From assembly GCF_003752365.1 (NCBI RefSeq), contig NZ_RJUO01000002.1, positions 434,001-498,000 on the forward strand: a DNA stretch of 64,000 bases. The letters are read 5' to 3'. The translations under genes were made by a program, and so were the position numbers. This DNA is from Frondihabitans sp. PhB188. Its GTDB lineage: Bacteria > Actinomycetota > Actinomycetes > Actinomycetales > Microbacteriaceae. The notes under the pieces were generated by a model, which saw only the letters and a list, made by a program, of their open reading frames with translations, did no database searches and had not been told where the DNA came from. This document shows positions 933 through 10,207 of this stretch, piece after piece (the stretch's first letter is position 1; each line of letters opens with the position of its first letter).

Positions 933-2381
933 TCAGCCGGCGGGGCCGAACCGACGCGCGTAGGCCCGGCGGCTCGTCTTGCCCGCGTCGTTGCGGACGG
1001 GGTCGTCCACCACGTGGATCCGCGCGGGGCGGCGAGCGCCATCGAGTCGACCGGCCGCCCAGGCGAGCACGTCGCCGGCCTCGACCGCGGCGCCCGCGAC
1101 GTCGACGACGGCCTCGATGCGCTGCCCGAGGTCGTCGTCCGGCACGCCGAAGGCCACGGCGCTCCGCACGGCGAGGTGAGCCTCGAGTACGCGCTCGATC
1201 TCGGCGGGGTGCACGTTGACCCCTCCTCGCAGGATCAGGTCGTCCGCACGGTCGACGACGTAGAGGTACCCGTCGTCGTCCACCCGCCCGAGGTCGCCGA
1301 TGGTGTCCCACCCGTCCGGGGTCCGCGACGAGGAGCCGCCGAGGTAGCGGTAGGTCGGCTCGCCCTCCCGGTGCAGCCAGATCCGGCCGACCTCGTTCGC
1401 CGGGAGCTCCGCGCCGTCGGCGGAGCGGATCGCGACCGTCGTGCCGCCGATCGCGCGGCCGACGCTGCCGGGGTGGGCCAGCCACTCGTCGCCGCGGATC
1501 ATGACGAGCCCGTTCGACTCGCTGCCCGCGTAGACCTCGACGACGCGCTCCGGACCGACCCAGTCCAGGAAGCGGCGCTTGAGGTCGGGCGGGCACGGCG
1601 CCCCCAGGTGCAGGACCGTGAGGAGGCTCGAGAGGTCCGCGGCCGCGCGCTCGGACTCCGGTAGGCGGAGGAGCCGGTGCATCATCGTCGGGACGAGCAG
1701 CGCCCACGTGACCCGGTGGGTCTCGATCGCGGCGAGCGCCCGCGTCTCGTCGAAGCGCGGAAGGATGACGAGGGCGTGGCCGGTCATCAGGCCGCGGAAC
1801 GCGTAGGTGAACGTGGCGGAGTGGGTCAGCGGCCCGGTGACGAGCTGAACCTGCTCGCGCGGCAGGTAGGGCGCCACGGCGAGGTCGGGATCCATGAGGG
1901 CCGGCCCGGCCGCCAGGACGACCTTGGGGCGCCCGGTCGAGCCCGACGACGTGGGCGCCTTCCAGCTCGCGGCCCAGGCGTCCGGCAGCGCGGCGTCCGA
2001 GACCGAGGCGCCGGGAGTCCAGCCGACGGGCACCCACGGCACGTCGCGTTCAGCCTCGAAGCCGACGACCAGGGCCGGCGACACCAGCTCGACGAGCTCG
2101 TCGCGCTCCGCCAGCGAGAGCCCCGTCGAGATCGGCTGGGGCGTGGCGCCGCACTTCCAGACCGCGACGCAGACGATCACGATCTCGACGGTGTTCGGCA
2201 GCGAGACCGTCACCAGCGAGTCTGTCGTGACACCGAGCGCGAGGTAGGCCCGCGCGAGGCGGTTGGAGGCCTGGTCGAGCTCGACGGCCGTCAGCGTCCC
2301 CGCGTCGTCGGTCGCGACGACGCGGTGGGGATCCTGCTCAGCGAGCGCCGTGAAGATCCGGGAGATCGACTGCCTGGCCAT
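933..2381 (-). CDS. AMP-forming acyl-CoA synthetase/ligase
   Basis: ANL-superfamily adenylating enzyme of 482 residues, slightly shorter than typical acyl-CoA ligases (500-550). The P-loop-like motif TSSGSTGRPK lies near residue 163, the hinge motif (GYLYVVDRADD) about 110 residues from the C-terminus, and the A10-type lysine in the terminal DAGKTSRR. It activates a carboxylic acid as acyl-AMP and then acyl-CoA; the acid is unknown. The start is supported by a strong AGGAGG site 7 nt upstream and overlaps the end of the glycosyltransferase by 44 nt, so the two are translationally linked. It is not one of the core genes of the cluster as I know it, so its inclusion extends the locus. Confidence 0.88.
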   Translation of the reverse strand: MARQSISRIFTALAEQDPHRVVATDDAGTLTAVELDQASNRLARAYLALGVTTDSLVTVSLPNTVEIVIVCVAVWKCGATPQPISTGLSLAERDELVELVSPALVVGFEAERDVPWVPVGWTPGASVSDAALPDAWAASWKAPTSSGSTGRPKVVLAAGPALMDPDLAVAPYLPREQVQLVTGPLTHSATFTYAFRGLMTGHALVILPRFDETRALAAIETHRVTWALLVPTMMHRLLRLPESERAAADLSSLLTVLHLGAPCPPDLKRRFLDWVGPERVVEVYAGSESNGLVMIRGDEWLAHPGSVGRAIGGTTVAIRSADGAELPANEVGRIWLHREGEPTYRYLGGSSSRTPDGWDTIGDLGRVDDDGYLYVVDRADDLILRGGVNVHPAEIERVLEAHLAVRSAVAFGVPDDDLGQRIEAVVDVAGAAVEAGDVLAWAAGRLDGARRPARIHVVDDPVRNDAGKTSRRAYARRFGPAG

Positions 2382-3480
2382 GGTCGCCCTCCTGACCGAC
2401 CGCTTCGTAGAACGACTCGTGGAGGCGTGCGACGTCGTCCCAGTCGTGGGCGGCCGCCAGCGCGCGACCGCCGTCGGCCGTCGGCCCGTCGCCGCCGATC
2501 GCCGACGAGAGCGCGGCGGCGATCGACGTCGCCTCGGTGGCGTACGACACGGTCGAGCCGAACACCTCGCGCAGGACAGGGAGGTCGCGCGCGACGACGG
2601 GGACTCCGGCGGCCAGGGCCTCCATCGCCGCCAGGCCGAAGCCCTCCTTGGTCGACACGAACGCCAGGGCCGCAGCGCCGGCGACCAGAGGGGCCAGCTC
2701 GGGCTCGTCGATCACGCCGAGGATCGTCGGCGCGATTCCGAGCACGGCGGCCCGCGCATCGAAGGCCTCGCGGTACGGGCGGTAGTCGAAGAGCGTCTCG
2801 CCGCCGCCGAATACCAGCCGCAGGTCGGGGCGCTGAGAGCGCAGGAGGGAGAACGCATCGAGGAGGTCGATGCTCCCCTTGCGCGGCTCGATCCCGCCTA
2901 ATGCGAGCACGTAGGGCCCGAGCTCCGTGCGCCAGCGATCGCGGCCCGCCTTCCCGGCCGGGCCGGCGGCGGCCACGAATCGCTCCGCGTCCACGCCGTT
3001 CGGGATCACCGTCGGCGCGAGCCCCCAGCCGTCCGCGACGTCGGAGGCGACCGCCGCCGACACGCACAGCCGGGCGATCGGCTCCCTGATGGCCGCGTCG
3101 TGGCAGGCGATCAGCTGCGGGGTCGTGAACTCGTCGAGGTGGTGGATCGTGCGGATGCAGGGGCCGACCGCGTTGGCCGAGATGCAGTCCTGCGCGTGGA
3201 CGGCGTCGAACTGGGACGACGACTCGGCGAACGCCCTCCGCATCGTCTCGATCGACCTCTGGATCCGGTGCCCCACGTCTTCTCCGTCGATCGGCTCGAA
3301 CGGGACCACCCGAATGGTCACCGCGGGGTCGACCGAGCGGAAGAAGGCCTGGTCGCCGCCGCGCCCGAGGGTCCAGACCGTGACGTCGTGGCCGCGACGG
3401 GCCAGCGCCTCCGAGAGGGCGAGCGTGTGGACCACGCCGCCGCGCGGCTTGGTCGAGTAAGTCACCTGGGCGATACGCAC
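2338..3480 (-). CDS. Glycosyltransferase, family 4 (MSMEG_0565-like)
   Basis: GT-B fold glycosyltransferase of 380 residues. The N-terminus (MRIAQVTYSTKPRGGVVHT) carries the glycine loop of GT4 enzymes. The C-terminal half has the nucleotide-sugar site with STKEGFGLAAMEALAAG. It starts at GTG with TTGGAGG 6 nt upstream, 27 bp after the nitrilase-like gene. Its position beside nitrilase, flavoprotein and MSMEG_0570 genes identifies it as the MSMEG_0565-type member of the cluster. It probably adds a sugar to the pathway product; donor and acceptor are unknown. Confidence 0.85.
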   Translation of the reverse strand: MRIAQVTYSTKPRGGVVHTLALSEALARRGHDVTVWTLGRGGDQAFFRSVDPAVTIRVVPFEPIDGEDVGHRIQRSIETMRRAFAESSSQFDAVHAQDCISANAVGPCIRTIHHLDEFTTPQLIACHDAAIREPIARLCVSAAVASDVADGWGLAPTVIPNGVDAERFVAAAGPAGKAGRDRWRTELGPYVLALGGIEPRKGSIDLLDAFSLLRSQRPDLRLVFGGGETLFDYRPYREAFDARAAVLGIAPTILGVIDEPELAPLVAGAAALAFVSTKEGFGLAAMEALAAGVPVVARDLPVLREVFGSTVSYATEATSIAAALSSAIGGDGPTADGGRALAAAHDWDDVARLHESFYEAVGQEGDHGQAVDLPDLHGAR

Positions 3481-3507: not shown

Positions 3508-4368
3508 TCAGTCGCGGGCCGCGGCCACCGTGGGGCCGTAGGCCTTGGGGGCGCGGTCGCGGAGATGGAACATGGTGCGCCGAGCCCGGGCGACATCGGT
3601 GGCGACATCGGCCGTGGCGACGGCGAGGCCCCCCTTGGCCCAGGTCTTGGCGATGATCTCGCCGGCCGGGTCGACCACCTTGGCCTGCCCGAGGAAGCGC
3701 AGCCCGCCGAGGACGCCGGTCTGATTGGACGACACGAGGTAGACCTGGTTCTCGGCGGCGCGAGCGCAGTCGTAGAGGTCGAACAGGTGGGCCTGACGGT
3801 CGTTGCGGAGTCGGTCCGAGCGGTCGGTGACGCTGGCGGGCCAGGCGCTGAGGCAGGCGAGGATCTCGGCGCCGTCGAGAGCCAGCGTCCGCGACGACTC
3901 CGGGAAGGTCTTGTCGAAGTCGATCAGCATGCCCAGGCGCCCCACGGGGGTGTCGAACGAGCGGAAGCCGGATCCTGCGCGATAGGCCTCGGACTCGCCC
4001 AGCGGCAGGTGCACCTTGCGGTGCGTGCCGAGGACCCTGCCGCCCTGGACGCAGACGGCGCTGTTGTACCGGACGTCCTCGCCGCCCTCGAGCGCCCTCT
4101 CGGCCACGCCGAAGCACAGCGTGAGGTCGCCTGCCATGTCGGCGATGGCCTGGACCTCCGGTCCGTCGAGCTCGACGGCCGGCGGCAGCGCCTCCGGGCC
4201 GGGGTGCACCATGTCGAGCAGGTAGCCCCCGACAGTGGCGTCGGGCAGGACGAGCAGGTCGATGCCGCGCTCGCGCGCCTGGTCGATCATGCCCGGCAGC
4301 TTGGCGAGGGTCCGCTCGATGTCGCGCCCGAAGTGGGCGGCGACCGCGCCCATCGTGATCTCGGCCAT
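3508..4368 (-). CDS. Nitrilase-superfamily paralogue lacking the catalytic Cys and Glu
   Basis: A 286-residue carbon-nitrogen hydrolase fold, collinear with the nitrilase at 5943-6815. The lysine (RKVH, K118) and the following Glu of PLGE are kept. The catalytic Glu is Asp (LPDATVGGY, D43), and the catalytic Cys is Asp (LIDFDKTFPE, D150) where the paralogue has QICYDKAFPE. I checked both codons (GAC) on the DNA. With no nucleophile it should be inactive as nitrilase or amidase. It may be a structural or regulatory partner in a mixed oligomer, or may have acquired another chemistry. The frame is intact and coding composition normal, so it is not a decaying pseudogene. ATG 4368 is chosen because it aligns with the paralogue's start. 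Confidence 0.87.
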   Translation of the reverse strand: MAEITMGAVAAHFGRDIERTLAKLPGMIDQARERGIDLLVLPDATVGGYLLDMVHPGPEALPPAVELDGPEVQAIADMAGDLTLCFGVAERALEGGEDVRYNSAVCVQGGRVLGTHRKVHLPLGESEAYRAGSGFRSFDTPVGRLGMLIDFDKTFPESSRTLALDGAEILACLSAWPASVTDRSDRLRNDRQAHLFDLYDCARAAENQVYLVSSNQTGVLGGLRFLGQAKVVDPAGEIIAKTWAKGGLAVATADVATDVARARRTMFHLRDRAPKAYGPTVAAARD

Positions 4369-4388
4369 GTCGGACAGGCTAATGCCCG

Positions 4389-5663
4389 CTACCCCGGCAC
4401 AGCGGCCTCCGCGGGGTGTCGCGCGCGGTCGCCGATGGCCGACGAGAGGTGCTCCGAATCGCGGGCGATCGCCGCGAAGCGCCCCGACCCCCAGGTGTGG
4501 AGCCACGGCAGGCCCAGGAAGTACAGCCCCGGAGCGGCCGTGACACCGCGCTGGTGCGTGGGGTGCCCGGCGCCGTCGAAGACGCCGACCTGCACCCAGG
4601 AGTAGTCGGATCGGAACCCCGCCGACCAGATGATGCTGGTGATCCCGGCCTCGTCGAGGTCGAGGGACGTCACCTCCTCGTCGGGCCGCCACACGGGCAC
4701 GTAGCGGTCTTCGCGGGGCGCGTCGATCCCGGCACGGTCGATGTACCGGTCGATGTCTGTCTTGATCGACTCCATCACCGAGTCGGCGTGGTCGAGCGAC
4801 GCCTCGGCCGTCGGGCTGAAGGCGAGCGACGTGCCACCGCCGCCGATCAGACGGCCGTAGAGGCGCATGCCGCCGAGGGCGAACGACCGCAGGTCGATGT
4901 CACGGCCTCCGTCGCGTCCGGTCATGTAGTGGTTCGTCGACTCGCGCTTGGTGAGTCCGCCGACCTGGGCCTGGACGGGGATGTCGTAGACGCCCATGTC
5001 GTCGAGCCAGGCGATGCAGTCGCGGCCGCGGTAGAAGCGAGCGCAGCGAGGAGCCGACCCGAGAGCCAGGTGGACCTCGCGCCCGGCGAGGAACAGGTCT
5101 TCGGCGATCTGCGCGCCCGACTGGCCGGAGCCGACGACGAGCACTCCCCCCTGGGGCAGCACGTCGGCGGACCGGTAGTCGGCGGAGTGCACCTGCACGA
5201 TCGAGCCGCTGATCCGGCCGGCCGCTGCCGGCAGCACGGGCCGGTGGTAGCCGCCGGTCGCGACGACCACCTGGTCGGCCGTGATGGTGCCCTGGTCGGT
5301 GACGACCTCGAAGCCGCCCGCCGCCCCCTCACGCACTCGAGTGACGAGCACGCCCTCCACGACCGGCGCACCGAACGACTCGGCGTAGCGGCGGATCCAG
5401 GCGAGCACCTCGTCGCGCTTCATGAAGCCGTCCGGATCGGCGCCGTCGTACGGATACCCGGGTAGAGCGCACTGCCAGTTCGGCGTGACCAGGGTGAAGT
5501 TGTCCCAGCGGCGGTCGGCCCAGTCGTGGGCGACCGTGTCTCGCTCGAGCACGAGGTGGCCGATGCCCCGCTGCGTGAGCTGCCAGCTCATGGACAGCCC
5601 GGCCTGGCCGCCCCCGACGACGGCGACCTCGACGTGCGAGCCGTCGGTGATCCGCGCGCTCAC
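4389..5663 (-). CDS. MSMEG_0569-family flavin-dependent oxidoreductase
   Basis: Class-B flavin monooxygenase-like protein of 424 residues. An N-terminal FAD Rossmann motif (VVGGGQAGLSMSW) lies near residue 15, and a second dinucleotide motif (VVGSGQSGAQIAE) near residue 175 should bind NAD(P)H. It starts inside the end of the MSMEG_0570-family gene (ATGA overlap) and ends 20 bp before the second nitrilase, so it is co-transcribed with them. Members of this family occur almost only in nitrilase-type clusters. Probable role: oxidation of a small nitrogen-containing intermediate. Confidence 0.88.
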   Translation of the reverse strand: MSARITDGSHVEVAVVGGGQAGLSMSWQLTQRGIGHLVLERDTVAHDWADRRWDNFTLVTPNWQCALPGYPYDGADPDGFMKRDEVLAWIRRYAESFGAPVVEGVLVTRVREGAAGGFEVVTDQGTITADQVVVATGGYHRPVLPAAAGRISGSIVQVHSADYRSADVLPQGGVLVVGSGQSGAQIAEDLFLAGREVHLALGSAPRCARFYRGRDCIAWLDDMGVYDIPVQAQVGGLTKRESTNHYMTGRDGGRDIDLRSFALGGMRLYGRLIGGGGTSLAFSPTAEASLDHADSVMESIKTDIDRYIDRAGIDAPREDRYVPVWRPDEEVTSLDLDEAGITSIIWSAGFRSDYSWVQVGVFDGAGHPTHQRGVTAAPGLYFLGLPWLHTWGSGRFAAIARDSEHLSSAIGDRARHPAEAAVPG

Positions 5664-5950
5664 GAGGGCAGCCCCGGTTCCATGCGCAGGATCTCGACGG
5701 TGCCGGTATCGAAGCCGGCTGCGGTCGCGACGATCTCGCTCTTCTGCTGGATCGCCGACGTGCAGCTGAAGCCGTACGTGGCGAGCACCCGCTCGCTGGC
5801 GAGGTCGAGCGCCGCCGACGACCGCCTCACGAACTCGTCCACCGAGTACGTCGCTCCGCGGTCGAGGTAGTCGTGCATCACGAGGCTGGGCGAGTAGCAG
5901 GACACCTCGGAGCCGTCCGGCCAGCGCACCTCGAAGGTCATCTCAGGCAT
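5660..5950 (-). CDS. MSMEG_0570-family nitrogen-starvation-response protein
   Basis: Small 96-residue protein beginning MPEMTFEVRWPDGSE, without transmembrane segments. It matches the short MSMEG_0570-family component by size, N-terminal pattern (F-x-V-x-W-P-D-G) and position between nitrilase and flavoprotein. It overlaps the nitrilase end by 8 nt and the flavoprotein start by 4 nt. No catalytic function is established; a carrier or accessory role is a guess. Confidence 0.85.
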   Translation of the reverse strand: MPEMTFEVRWPDGSEVSCYSPSLVMHDYLDRGATYSVDEFVRRSSAALDLASERVLATYGFSCTSAIQQKSEIVATAAGFDTGTVEILRMEPGLPS

Positions 5951-6815
5951 CGATCAACGCCCCCTCGCCGGTCCGGTACACGTCGGGGCGACGGTCTCGC
6001 AGGTGGAACATGCCGCCGCGCATGGCTGCGAAGGTGCCCTCGACGTCGATCTCGGCGATCGCCATGCCCGAGTCGAGCAGAGTCGTCGCGAGGATGTTGC
6101 CACCCGGGTCGACGACCTTCGCGTTGCCCACGTAGCGGAGCGAGCCGAAGGTGCCGGCCTGGTTCGAGGCGATCCAGAACACCTGGTTGTCGAGGGCCCT
6201 CGACATGTCGAACAGGTTGAACCGGTAGGTCCAGCGGTCCTCCTGCAGGTTCTCGGCGGTCGCGGTGCGCGCAGCCGGCCAGGCGGACATGCTCACGATG
6301 ATCTCGGCGCCGTCCATCGCGAGCGAACGGGCCGCCTCCGGGAACGCCTTGTCGTAGCAGATCTGCATCCCGACGCGACCCACGGGGGTGTCGAACGCCT
6401 CGTAGACGTCTCCGGCCGAGTACGACATGTTCTCGCCGAGCGGCTGATGCACCTTGCGGTACGAGCCGTAGATCGTCGTCCCGTCGAGGCACACGGCCGC
6501 GTTGTACCGGGTCTCGCCGTCGTCGGCCAGCTCGCAGAAGCCGATGCAGACGACCAGGTCGCCCACGATGCTCTGGACCCGGCGGATCTCGGGGCCGTCG
6601 AGGGAGATCGCCGGCGGCAGGGAGCGCGTCGTGTTCTTCAGGGTGTCGCCGTGGTTGCCGAGCGACGAGAGGTACCCGCCGATCGCGGCCTCCGGCAGGA
6701 CGAGGAGCCGCACGTCGTTCTCCCGTGCCTCGGCGACCAGGGATTCGATGAGCGCGTAGTTCTGCTCGAGGTCTCGTGTGAAATTCGCCGAGACGGCTGC
6801 GACGGTGGTGGCCAT
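5943..6815 (-). CDS. Nitrilase (Nit6803 / Nit1C type)
   Basis: A 290-residue nitrilase with the complete catalytic triad: E42 (LPEAAIGGYL), K121 (YRKVH) and C153 (QICYDKAFPE). It hydrolyses a C-N bond of a nitrile or amide through a cysteine thioester; this branch includes Synechocystis Nit6803. It is first in the leftward operon, with AAGGAG 6 nt before the ATG, and faces the MSMEG_0572-family gene across a 221-bp divergent promoter region. The substrate in this organism is unknown. The operon also encodes a paralogue without the catalytic residues. Confidence 0.92.
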   Translation of the reverse strand: MATTVAAVSANFTRDLEQNYALIESLVAEARENDVRLLVLPEAAIGGYLSSLGNHGDTLKNTTRSLPPAISLDGPEIRRVQSIVGDLVVCIGFCELADDGETRYNAAVCLDGTTIYGSYRKVHQPLGENMSYSAGDVYEAFDTPVGRVGMQICYDKAFPEAARSLAMDGAEIIVSMSAWPAARTATAENLQEDRWTYRFNLFDMSRALDNQVFWIASNQAGTFGSLRYVGNAKVVDPGGNILATTLLDSGMAIAEIDVEGTFAAMRGGMFHLRDRRPDVYRTGEGALIDA

Positions 6816-7036
6816 CGGGTCTCCTTGCGGTGAGTGGAGCGGGACGCGCAGGATCCTGCGGTGCACCTAGTCAACGACGGCACGTGTTTCTGAATGGTTA
6901 CGGCAGGAATAAGAGCTCGTTTCGGCGGAAACATGCAATCTCGCCGAAACCAGTCCGCAACAAACACGGCAAAGACTCGATCTCGTACGGCTCCCGATCC
7001 AGACACGCATGCATCTCGACCCGCTAGGAGACACAC
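6816..7036. promoter_or_regulatory. Divergent promoter region of the nitrilase cluster with a 9-bp inverted repeat
   Basis: The 221-bp gap between the two operons is clearly richer in A/T than its surroundings. It contains a perfect inverted repeat, GTTTCGGCG at 6919-6927 and CGCCGAAAC at 6942-6950, with a 14-bp spacer. The left arm also forms GTTTC-GGCG-GAAAC. GAAAC half-sites recall GlnR boxes, but the spacing does not fit the GlnR consensus. The ribosome site of the rightward operon (TAGGAG) is at 7025-7030. A common operator for both operons is plausible, not shown. Confidence 0.5.
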
Positions 7037-7567
7037 ATGAGCGACATCGACTACGACCAGCAGATCCTCGACAACATCGAGACCTCTCGCACCGAGATCC
7101 CTCACCCCTCGATCCCCAAGGGCTCGAACATCTACGGATCGACGAAGATCTTCCCCGACTACACGGCCACGAAAGACGAGTACTACTTCCAGCTCGTCCA
7201 CGGCATCGCCCACGAGTCCTCCGTCAGCTTCGTCGCGACGCTGCAGGCGATCCGCGCCCTCCGCAAGGGATTCACGAGCGTCCTGTACTTCTACGGCCCG
7301 GGCTCGATGAACTGCATCGCCAACCGCGGCTTCCCGACGACCGGGGCCGACGGGTTCCCGGGCGAGAACAACATCAACAACGCCCTGGAGACCTTCATCA
7401 AGGAGGGCGGCACCGTGTTCTGCTGCCGCTTCGGCCTGGCGCTCCACGGCAACCGCGAGGAGGACCTCATCGAGGGCGTCATCCCCTGCCACCCGCTCGA
7501 CGTCCAGGACGCCGTCATCCACTACGCCCGCAAGGGCGCGATCATCAACAGCACCTACATGGTCTGA
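7037..7567 (+). CDS. MSMEG_0572/Sll0783-family nitrogen-starvation-response protein
   Basis: A 176-residue soluble protein of the family typified by Synechocystis Sll0783 and MSMEG_0572, the first gene of most such clusters. It is rich in acidic and aromatic residues, with a glycine-rich segment (FYGPGSMNCIANRGFP). TAGGAG lies 6 nt before the ATG. The stop is 2 nt from the start of the radical SAM gene, so the two are coupled. In Synechocystis the homologue is induced by nitrogen starvation and needed for normal polyhydroxybutyrate accumulation; its biochemical role is unknown. Confidence 0.88.
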   Translation: MSDIDYDQQILDNIETSRTEIPHPSIPKGSNIYGSTKIFPDYTATKDEYYFQLVHGIAHESSVSFVATLQAIRALRKGFTSVLYFYGPGSMNCIANRGFPTTGADGFPGENNINNALETFIKEGGTVFCCRFGLALHGNREEDLIEGVIPCHPLDVQDAVIHYARKGAIINSTYMV

Positions 7568-7569
7568 CC

Positions 7570-8643
7570 GTGACCATCACCAACGGCGGGGCGCTGTCGA
7601 CCCGGGTCGACGTCGCGATCCGCGGCATCCGCGTCGCGGCACCCGTGCATCGCGAGGGCGGCGCCGGGCCGAGCGACGACGGGCACGTGCTGTTCCAGGG
7701 GATGCAGTCGGCCATCCCGGTCAACCAGGACAGCCCCTACCTCGTCGACGACGGCCGGCTCCTGCTCGACGGGGAGGACACCGGAATCGAGGTGTCCCCC
7801 GTCGATCGGCCGAGGTTCTACGACCTCGCCACCGCCGACGGCGTCCCGTACGAGCAGATCGCGCGCCTGCACGGCGCGAAGGTGCTCGCCACGACGGTCG
7901 TGCAGACCTGCATCCGCTACGACCCGGCGGAGCGCTGCCGCTTCTGCTCCATCGAGGAGTCGCTGAAGTCGGGGAGCACCGTGGCCGTCAAGACGCCGGC
8001 GATGATCGCCGAGGTGGCGGAGGCGGCCTGGCGACTCGACGGGGTCGAGCAGATGGTCATGACGACCGGCACCTCGAACGGGCGCGACCGCGGGGCCACT
8101 CACCTGGCCCGCTGCGTCCGCGCGATCAAGAAGGCCGTCCCCGACCTGATGATCCAGGTCCAGTGCGAGCCGCCCGCCGACCTGAAGACGATCACCGACC
8201 TGTACGAAGCCGGCGCCCGCTCGATCGGCATCCACGTCGAGTCGATGGACGACGCGGTCCGGCGCCGGTGGATGCCGGGCAAGTCGCGCGTCTCGCTCGA
8301 CGAGTACCGGGCCGCCTGGCGGGAGGCCGTGCGGGTCTTCGGCCGCAACCAGGTCTCGACCTACCTCCTCGTCGGAATGGGCGAGGACCCCGACGAGATG
8401 GTCGCCGGAGCGCAGGAGCTGATCGACATGGGCGTCTACCCGTTCGTCGTCCCGTTCCGCCCGCTCCGCGGCACCCTCGCGACCGACGTCGACAAGGTGC
8501 CTGCACCCCACCGCGGCGTCCTCCACGACATCACGTCCCGGGTGTCGCAGGCGCTGATCGCTGCCGGGATGCGCGGCTCCGACCAGAAGGCGGGCTGCGC
8601 GGCGTGCGGCGCGTGCTCGGCTTTGCAGACGGCGGGGGGCTAG
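7570..8643 (+). CDS. MSMEG_0568-family radical SAM protein
   Basis: A 357-residue radical SAM enzyme starting at GTG 2 nt after the preceding stop. The [4Fe-4S]-SAM cysteines appear to be C114, C123 and C126 (CIRYDPAERCRFC), a C-x8-C-x2-C spacing rather than the canonical C-x3-C-x2-C. A C-terminal CAACGAC (C343, C346, C349) could hold an auxiliary cluster. The barrel has MTTGTSN and IGIHVES as SAM- and substrate-binding strands. It is the central enzyme of the locus and should catalyse a radical rearrangement or C-C/C-N bond step; substrate unknown. Confidence 0.88.
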   Translation: MTITNGGALSTRVDVAIRGIRVAAPVHREGGAGPSDDGHVLFQGMQSAIPVNQDSPYLVDDGRLLLDGEDTGIEVSPVDRPRFYDLATADGVPYEQIARLHGAKVLATTVVQTCIRYDPAERCRFCSIEESLKSGSTVAVKTPAMIAEVAEAAWRLDGVEQMVMTTGTSNGRDRGATHLARCVRAIKKAVPDLMIQVQCEPPADLKTITDLYEAGARSIGIHVESMDDAVRRRWMPGKSRVSLDEYRAAWREAVRVFGRNQVSTYLLVGMGEDPDEMVAGAQELIDMGVYPFVVPFRPLRGTLATDVDKVPAPHRGVLHDITSRVSQALIAAGMRGSDQKAGCAACGACSALQTAGG

Positions 8644-8645
8644 CG

Positions 8646-10067
8646 GTGGCCCTGCTGGATGTGCCGGCCCTCATGGGGCCGAGTGTCGTCGCGCGTCCCG
8701 CCGAGTTCCTGGTCGCCATCGCCGAAGGCACGGAGGTCGACGCCTACCGCAGGCTCCGGCAGGCGGCCTTCGTCGATGAGCAGGGGCTCTTCGCGGGCAC
8801 GGACCGCGACGACCTGGACGACGACCCGCGCACCGTCGTGCTCGTGGCGCGGGCCGGCACGACGGTCGTCGGCGGCGTGCGGATCTCACCCGTCGGCGCC
8901 CGCGACATCGGCTGGTGGACGGGCTCGCGCCTGGTCGTGGCCCCCGAGGCCCGCAGTGCGCTCGGAATCGGCTCCGCGCTCGTGCGGGCGGCGAGCGCCC
9001 TGGCGGAGCAGCTCGGGGTGATCCGCTTCGACGCGACCGTGCAGACCCGGAGCTCGGTCCTCTTCCGTCGCCTCGGCTGGCAGACGACGGGCAGCACTGT
9101 CATCGGCGGCGTCGACCATCTCGCCATGCGCTGGCCGATCGACCGGTACCAGCGACTCGTCGACGCCACGAAGTCGCACCTCGCCGCCCTGCTCGAGCCC
9201 CACTCGGCGTGGGCCGACGCCCCGGCGACCTCGCTCGGCGGCCCCGGCTGGGTCGGGGACGACGGCGCTCCCGTCCCCGGAAGCGACGTGATCGCCGCGT
9301 GCGACGCGATCCTGCCCTCCATGGTCGAGCGCGATCCGGAGTGGGCCGGCTGGTGCGGCGTGCTCGTCAACGTCAACGACTTGAGCGCGATGGGCGCCGC
9401 GCCGGTCGGGCTTCTCGACGCCGTGGCCGGGCGCGACACGGAGTTCGTACGCCGCGTGATGACAGGCATCCGTCGCGGCGCTGCGGCCTGGGGCATCCCC
9501 ATCTTGGGCGGGCACACGCAGGTCGGCGTGCCGGCAGCGCTCTCCGTCACGGCTCTCGGACGCACGGGCCATCCGGTTCCGGGCGGGGGCGGCCGCTACG
9601 GCGACGCGCTCAGCCTCACCATCGACGTCAGCGGCTCCTGGCGCGAAGGACACCGCGGAGCGCAGTGGAACTCGACCGAGGGACGCCGCTCCGACGAGCT
9701 GCGCGACCTCGCCGCCGCCGTGGCCCGCGCGCGGCCGGCCGCCGCGAAGGACGTCAGCATGGCCGGGATCGTCGGCACGGCGGGCATGCTCGCCGAGGCC
9801 AGCGGCTACGGCGCGGTGCTCGACGTCGAGGCGGTCCCGACGCCGCACGCCTCGGCAGACGTCGCGCTGGGCGACTGGCTCGGGTGCTTCCCGGGCTTCG
9901 GGATGATCACGGCCGACCGCCCGGGCGAGTCGCGCATGGACTCTCCGTTCGCATCGACGGCCGAGGTCGGCTCGCTGACGCTGGAGCGCGGCATCGTCCT
10001 GCGGTGGCCCGACGGCGAGACCACGCGAGCGGTCACCGGAGGGGTGACCGGCCTCGGCCCCGCCTGA
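8646..10067 (+). CDS. Fused GNAT acetyltransferase / AIR-synthase-like protein (MSMEG_0567 type)
   Basis: A 473-residue two-domain protein. Residues about 15-160 form a GNAT-type domain (RQAAFVDEQGLF; acetyl-CoA loop in ARSALGIGSALVRAA). Residues about 165-470 resemble the PurM/AIR-synthase ATP-binding fold (VNVNDLSAMGAAPVG, IPILGGHTQVG). In cyanobacteria these are two genes (sll0786, sll0787); here, as in MSMEG_0567, they are one polypeptide. GTG at 8646 is chosen: it follows the previous stop by 2 nt, with a G-rich ribosome site at 8634-8639. ATG at 8673 is an alternative. The product probably acylates and phosphorylates a pathway intermediate. Confidence 0.85.
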   Translation: MALLDVPALMGPSVVARPAEFLVAIAEGTEVDAYRRLRQAAFVDEQGLFAGTDRDDLDDDPRTVVLVARAGTTVVGGVRISPVGARDIGWWTGSRLVVAPEARSALGIGSALVRAASALAEQLGVIRFDATVQTRSSVLFRRLGWQTTGSTVIGGVDHLAMRWPIDRYQRLVDATKSHLAALLEPHSAWADAPATSLGGPGWVGDDGAPVPGSDVIAACDAILPSMVERDPEWAGWCGVLVNVNDLSAMGAAPVGLLDAVAGRDTEFVRRVMTGIRRGAAAWGIPILGGHTQVGVPAALSVTALGRTGHPVPGGGGRYGDALSLTIDVSGSWREGHRGAQWNSTEGRRSDELRDLAAAVARARPAAAKDVSMAGIVGTAGMLAEASGYGAVLDVEAVPTPHASADVALGDWLGCFPGFGMITADRPGESRMDSPFASTAEVGSLTLERGIVLRWPDGETTRAVTGGVTGLGPA

Positions 10068-10160
10068 GCACGGCCGCGTTCGCGCGCTCCGACCGCGTCA
10101 GCGCGCCGTCTCGGCCGGCGGTCTCGGCGTTCATCCCGGCAGGCTACCCGCGAGCAGACC

Positions 10161-10190
10161 GAGGCCCCGCACCTCTCGGCGCGGGGCCTC
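10161..10190. terminator. Bidirectional hairpin terminator
   Basis: Perfect 10-bp stem (GAGGCCCCGC / GCGGGGCCTC) with a 10-nt loop, between the convergent ends of the nitrilase-cluster operon and the glycosidase gene. The 15 nt GCGGGGCCTCGCCTT recurs in the hairpin at 18279-18309. Confidence 0.75.
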
Positions 10191-10207
10191 GCCTTCAGCG
10201 GGCGCTC

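Follow-up and report, generated by a model that had tools for sequence, protein, structure and literature searches.

The Nit1C gene cluster, to the extent that the accessible text of Podar et al. (2005, PMC1199592) describes it, has in common with the locus reported here an MSMEG_0572 protein, a radical SAM protein, a GNAT protein, an AIR-synthase-like (AIRS-like) protein, an MSMEG_0570-like protein and a flavoprotein. Nit1C has one nitrilase of the Nit6803/NitC type, whereas the actinobacterial form has two proteins with the carbon-nitrogen (CN) hydrolase fold and carries its GNAT fused to the AIRS-like domain. The gpr cluster of M. smegmatis, MSMEG_0565-0572, has the same gene set as our locus, as judged from the available portions of two reports on it (PMC6039565, PMC4222082). 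According to those portions, the cluster is induced by nitrogen starvation through GlnR, and the available part of one of them (PMC6039565) reports that MSMEG_0572, the gene measured, rose more than 500-fold once nitrogen was removed and that cells from which the cluster was deleted were sensitive to peroxide; no product of the cluster is named there. In the accessible text of both (PMC6039565, PMC4222082), MSMEG_0566 is a putative aliphatic amidase with a possible part in nitrogen assimilation, and within that text the loss of a catalytic cysteine is not mentioned. The available part of PMC6039565 also puts forward selenocysteine decoding of a UGA in MSMEG_0571, which would fuse it to later genes; the Cys-bearing proteins are ordinary separate genes in the loci that we mapped, and these loci therefore give no support to the fusion idea.

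The window, by which we mean the whole 64,000-nucleotide stretch of Frondihabitans sp. PhB188 DNA that was analysed, contains two runs of cluster genes in opposite orientation. The minus-strand run, from 6815 to 933, consists of six genes with short gaps or overlaps: a Cys-bearing CN-hydrolase-fold protein with an intact E42-K121-E128-C153 set (5943-6815), a small MSMEG_0570-like protein of 96 aa (5660-5950), an MSMEG_0569 family flavin-dependent oxidoreductase (4389-5663; TIGR04046, 638.8 bits), an Asp-bearing CN-hydrolase-fold protein (3508-4368), an MSMEG_0565 family glycosyltransferase (2338-3480; TIGR04047, 440.7 bits) and, as the last gene, an AMP-binding acyl-CoA ligase-like protein (933-2381). 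On the plus strand, from 7037, lie genes encoding an MSMEG_0572/Sll0783 family nitrogen-starvation protein (7037-7567; TIGR04044), an MSMEG_0568 family radical SAM protein (7570-8643; TIGR04043) and a fused MSMEG_0567 GNAT and AIR-synthase-like protein (8661-10067, with the start codon uncertain between 8646, 8661 and 8673). A perfect short inverted repeat, GTTTCggcgGAAAC, is present at 6919-6932 in the divergent region between the runs and is a possible regulator site. No clear ribosome-binding site is visible by eye before the ATG of the Asp gene (4368-4391, minus strand), which differs in this respect from the Cys, glycosyltransferase and ligase genes; translation of the Asp gene may be coupled to that of the flavoprotein gene, the end of which is 20 bases upstream.

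Membership of the Nit1C/gpr group was judged on the conserved neighbours MSMEG_0565, 0567-0570 and 0572. TIGR04043, 04044, 04045, 04046, 04047 and 04050 all scored above their cut-offs, and the MSMEG_0570-like protein was assigned from where it lies and from homologues at the other clusters rather than from a family search. The window's cluster is the actinobacterial form of Nit1C and corresponds to gpr of M. smegmatis. The order at the locus of Mycolicibacterium sp. P9-64 (L070) is 0572, CN-hydrolase, 0570, flavoprotein, radical SAM, GNAT-AIRS, CN-hydrolase, glycosyltransferase, which is the MSMEG_0572-to-0565 order, and its second CN-hydrolase has the residues D-K-E-D. We assign the Asp protein of the window, by synteny, as the counterpart of MSMEG_0566 and the Cys protein, likewise, as that of MSMEG_0571.

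A preliminary description of this DNA had reported a nitrilase paralogue in which both catalytic residues are replaced by Asp, in an intact frame inside the operon. Both genes are where that description placed them, on the minus strand, a detail that it did not give; the Asp gene is the fourth of the six in its run and encodes 286 aa with no internal stop, and the Cys protein is 290 aa long. The two proteins align at 48-49% identity, with D43, K118, E125 and D150 of the Asp protein opposite E42, K121, E128 and C153 of the Cys protein. The window's protein does have Asp at both the catalytic Glu position (codon 4240-4242, minus strand) and the nucleophile position (codon 3919-3921, minus strand; both computed from the gene start at 4368), and the Lys is kept, as had been noted, as is the second active-site Glu.

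The term nitrilase fits these proteins loosely. Both have the carbon-nitrogen hydrolase fold: the Asp protein matches PF00795 over residues 15-262 of 286 (127.2 bits, cut-off 23.2) and has the alpha-beta-beta-alpha fold, its AF2 model has a pLDDT of 95.6 and a pTM of 0.93 (93.0 and 0.92 for the Cys protein), and in Foldseek the model's best match to a solved member had an E value of 3.2e-23, the best solved matches including D-carbamoylase, N-carbamoylputrescine amidase and a Pyrococcus amidase. Neither is a member of the Nit6803/NitC family, as the Asp and Cys proteins reached 24.7 and 40.6 bits with TIGR04048 against a cut-off of 502.6, while two proteobacterial cluster nitrilases scanned with the same model scored 580 bits each. 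A classical Nit1C nitrilase pair is ruled out by these scores, and that of the Cys protein indicates that a different CN-hydrolase branch takes the nitrilase's place in the actinobacterial cluster.

The Asp protein shares its fold, the Lys, the second Glu and a D-x-x-F-P-E stretch after the nucleophile elbow with the N-carbamoylputrescine amidase/D-carbamoylase branch (PF00795; 5h8i-l, 6lei, 6ypa, 3ivz). Unlike that branch, the clade to which it belongs has a fixed Asp for Cys and D, H, G or Q for the first Glu, and in place of the Glu-Lys-Cys triad that marks the superfamily as an enzyme class the window's protein has D43-K118-D150. In the plant N-carbamoylputrescine amidase, according to the available part of PMC4812014, the Lys amine and the backbone nitrogen after the Cys form the oxyanion hole, the second Glu probably has a part in substrate orientation, and the dimer mate forms a wall of the active-site entrance. 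When the Cys protein is aligned to this enzyme, C153, and hence D150, falls at the nucleophile elbow, where the carboxylate of D150 would be within reach of the Lys and the oxyanion hole, blocking thioester chemistry and leaving a polar pocket. With no thiol there, the Asp protein lacks the means to form the thioester through which amides or nitriles are hydrolysed; on the known Cys mechanism, classical hydrolysis by this protein would be impossible.

The Asp proteins group into a single clade in trees from which the catalytic columns had been removed, with support of 100/91 for 36 thinned rows, 91 for 48 rows and SH-aLRT 93 for 76 distinct rows, a result consistent with one origin; for the last tree, rows shorter than 215 aa, rows identical to or contained in others, and a few named distant outgroups were left out. 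All 76 have Asp at the nucleophile position and keep the Lys, and 75 keep the second Glu, the exception (from genome G759) having Asp. Because 76 distinct proteins of one clade share Asp at the Cys position, chance is excluded, as are a sequencing error and a quirk of this strain, the last two being outcomes that the preliminary description had allowed for. The first Glu position behaves differently, with D in 62 members, G in seven, H in six and Q in one, a distribution that needs at least four changes; among Cys-type rows, 124 of 125 read E-K-E-C and the remaining row is gapped at this position. The two Asp residues are unequal, D150 being fixed and position 43 drifting. Replacement of both residues by Asp is therefore true of the window's protein and not family-wide, and of the conserved two-paralogue branch with Asp at both positions that had been envisaged, the branch holds up and conservation of Asp at position 43 is rejected.

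In the careful tree, the Asp clade is joined first by four stand-alone Cys-type actinobacterial CN-hydrolases (L143, L146, L147 and L148, from genomes G492, G513, G534 and G766; support 94/91) and then by the Cys proteins encoded in the clusters of G492 and G513 (94/90), not by the window's own Cys protein. The Asp gene may derive from the stand-alone lineage that those four represent. Its origin may have been an in-cluster duplication or the recruitment of a separate CN-hydrolase, the relevant branches of the tree being unstarred and the outgroup very distant.

Using a simple method on the 71 pairs (47 loci) that passed an identity filter, we obtained nearly equal medians of pairwise dN/dS for the Asp protein (0.177) and the Cys protein (0.176), which show that the intact frame is kept under strong constraint. 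Mean column entropy was 0.98 bits in the Asp clade versus 1.05 in the Cys clade, and 87 of 272 columns were at least 97% conserved in the former versus 76 of 272 in the latter. D150, T154, Q192, L195, Y199, A205 and L226 are invariant specifically in the Asp clade (each in 36/36 thinned rows) and R183, R186 and Q228 nearly so; the Cys clade counterparts are mostly A157, W195, R198, F202 (32/44), L208 and V229. The first Glu has been released from constraint, and overall constraint is like that on the Cys protein and falls on a different residue set; the Asp clade represents divergence under selection, not decay. In family f15, which has His at the first position, the Asp protein had a higher dN/dS than the Cys protein, reaching 0.43, in 10 of the 13 f15 pairs among 40 listed of the 71, and constraint therefore looks looser in that family.

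The reading that we consider most likely, at about even odds, is that the Asp protein is a neofunctionalised, non-Cys CN-hydrolase-fold protein responsible for a separate step of the Nit1C/gpr pathway in actinobacteria. A pathway intermediate would be bound by the carboxylate of the elbow Asp, next to Lys118, and the pocket would either hold this intermediate or carry out acid-base, non-hydrolytic chemistry on it, at a step that would most likely lie near the glycosyltransferase/radical-SAM part of the pathway rather than consist in tuning of the Cys protein. We suggest tentatively, and regard as somewhat doubtful, that the invariant Asp, Lys and Glu perform a non-hydrolytic reaction on the intermediate, which would be new chemistry for the carbon-nitrogen hydrolase superfamily.

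Gene neighbourhoods and co-evolution bear on where such a step would lie. Counting recognised cluster genes within 400 bases of 51 Asp gene copies, we found the glycosyltransferase to be the next recognised gene downstream in 38 and to adjoin the Asp gene on either side in 40, versus 16 for the Cys gene. Plain distance-matrix correlations with the Asp protein across 33 thinned complete clusters were 0.64 for the radical SAM protein, 0.62 for the glycosyltransferase, 0.55 for the flavoprotein, 0.50 for GNAT-AIRS, 0.47 for the Cys protein and 0.41 for 0572. Partial correlations in the same 33 clusters, which control for the other cluster proteins, were 0.33 for the glycosyltransferase, 0.26 for the radical SAM protein, 0.22 for 0572, 0.07 for GNAT-AIRS, 0.03 for the Cys protein (95% bootstrap interval -0.15 to 0.27) and 0.01 for the flavoprotein; the glycosyltransferase value exceeded that of the Cys protein in 94% of bootstraps, with wide intervals and with adjacency as a confounder.

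The Asp gene also occurs away from its Cys partner. The two are on different contigs in the draft genome G782, and genome G811 (98% complete) has an Asp protein alone (L196; D-K-E-D, 9342-10205, plus strand), the sole examined locus with an Asp gene and no Cys gene. A search of the G811 genome matched only the Asp protein itself and no Cys protein, and found no MSMEG_0565-type glycosyltransferase above the family cut-off and no MSMEG_0568-family radical SAM protein; the remaining cluster genes were sought within the 19.5 kb around the Asp gene. On ORF reading, the flanking genes of this orphan are chromate-transporter-like and aldose-epimerase-like.

The preliminary description had suggested that a dead paralogue could tune or scaffold its active partner, an idea that the near-zero partial correlation with the Cys protein (against those with the glycosyltransferase and radical SAM protein), the adjacency counts, the separate contigs in G782 and the G811 orphan all speak against; an obligate partnership with the Cys protein is weakened by the same adjacency counts, orphan and correlation. 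In the form in which a non-catalytic Asp subunit hetero-oligomerises with the Cys protein and completes or allosterically sets the active site, as a prozyme does, the idea is possible but on balance unlikely. The two proteins share an operon and a fold, a dimer mate contributes to the active-site entrance in the related plant enzyme, eight near-invariant positions in or next to the 191-207 helix are common to both proteins, and in all 48 loci that have the Asp gene together with the radical SAM or 0572 gene the Cys gene is also present. Activation by a dead paralogue is known, as the available parts of PMC5201418 and PMC3663545 describe for the trypanosomatid AdoMetDC prozyme and deoxyhypusine synthase; in those systems, as here, an altered relative accompanies an intact one, and the loss of catalytic residues, purifying selection and a nearby intact relative are all found in our case. 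It differs from them in having one invariant altered residue and in co-evolution that does not point to the partner. Against a prozyme-like role, beyond the residual correlation of 0.03 and the loci in G782 and G811, the Asp, Lys and second Glu are conserved as strictly as in a working pocket, and three tail residues (270, 273 and 274) that are conserved in the Cys clade vary in the Asp clade; in the related enzyme this part of the chain adjoins the active site of the mate.

The reading in which the Asp protein has its own step must itself be weighed against several points: the Asp and Lys could merely form a stabilising salt bridge in a scaffold protein, adjacency itself can be a cause of partial correlations (here from 33 clusters, with wide intervals), the G811 orphan is one genome, 98% complete, family f15 shows looser constraint, and some clusters do without the gene. 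A ligand sensor or carrier, which would bind an intermediate without converting it and deliver it, for example, to the glycosyltransferase or the acyl ligase, would account for a conserved pocket without a nucleophile and for a gene directly before that of the glycosyltransferase in 38 of 51 copies, but strict conservation of Asp, Lys and Glu exceeds, in our judgement, the usual demand of binding, and the single PF00795 match leaves no second domain; we consider this role improbable. A functionless, decaying duplicate is very improbable, for although the nucleophile is missing, the gene is absent from some clusters and family f15 shows some relaxation, the median dN/dS (0.18) equals that of the Cys protein and 76 distinct copies of at least 215 aa carry one fixed substitution, and a decaying pseudogene is rejected on the dN/dS values.

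Many actinobacteria carry, among their nitrogen-starvation cluster genes, an Asp-for-Cys twin of a nitrilase-like protein; the twin probably has a new job and is not a dead spare. We found no report of the loss of the catalytic Cys in an MSMEG_0566-type protein among the titles and abstracts listed, and none of a nitrilase-superfamily pseudoenzyme in the literature searched, the coverage in both cases being mostly of journals open without subscription. A protein of the actinobacterial gpr cluster that is annotated as an amidase and lacks the amidase nucleophile changes how the pathway should be drawn, and D150 offers a clean single-residue handle on an unexplained cluster.

To survey the distribution of the Asp protein we used the flavoprotein alignment as bait, because the catalytic residues then cannot bias the draw, and collected 80 loci, the best of at least 504 confirmed candidates, a choice that favours near relatives of the flavoprotein in the window. 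Of these best 80, 27 are, by record title, from Actinomycetota, and all 27 genomes carry the Asp protein, 24 of them inside the baited locus. In the remaining three (L062, L066 and L120) it is elsewhere in the genome (G781, G782 and G787), with Asp-type residues read in L150, L151 and L149, respectively. At the 53 other loci of the best 80 (Pseudomonadota, Cyanobacteriota), no CN-hydrolase had Asp at the Cys position; a CN-hydrolase was visible in the covered stretch at 45 of the 53 and absent from it at eight, and two loci had only a cut (L075) or broken one (L128), the L128 fragment having Ala at the nucleophile position. Four whole genomes (L068, L093, L106 and L108) gave no match to the Asp protein at 1e-20, and in seven further non-actinobacterial genomes the best match had an E value of 8.4e-23, one of the seven giving none at 1e-10.

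The Asp protein is sparse within the window's own order, being present in 17 of 396 sampled genomes. Further genome loci came from searches that used the Asp protein as query, a choice that over-samples its presence; the class-wide search gave matches at E <= 1e-70, part of which were taken (30 loci and 20 regions). Clusters with the Cys protein and without the Asp protein were found in G011, G014 (whose contig breaks off immediately upstream of the cluster), G819, G492, G513 and 13 genomes of family f106. The Asp gene is thus absent from otherwise functional-looking clusters, and its step would therefore be dispensable, replaceable or a later addition. In the 13 f106 loci (L182-L194) neither the MSMEG_0569 flavoprotein nor the Asp protein was detected, and ORF reading of L183, the one f106 locus read, and of L142 in G759 found another FAD-type protein in the flavoprotein's place. 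Lack of the Asp gene and lack of MSMEG_0569 do not generally go together: the Asp gene is kept in G759, which has the other FAD protein, and is missing from G011, G014 and G819, in which the MSMEG_0569 flavoprotein is present. Finally, four large Rhodococcus plasmid records (H1-H4) match the Asp protein at 60-61% identity in two places each, and the cluster may travel on plasmids.
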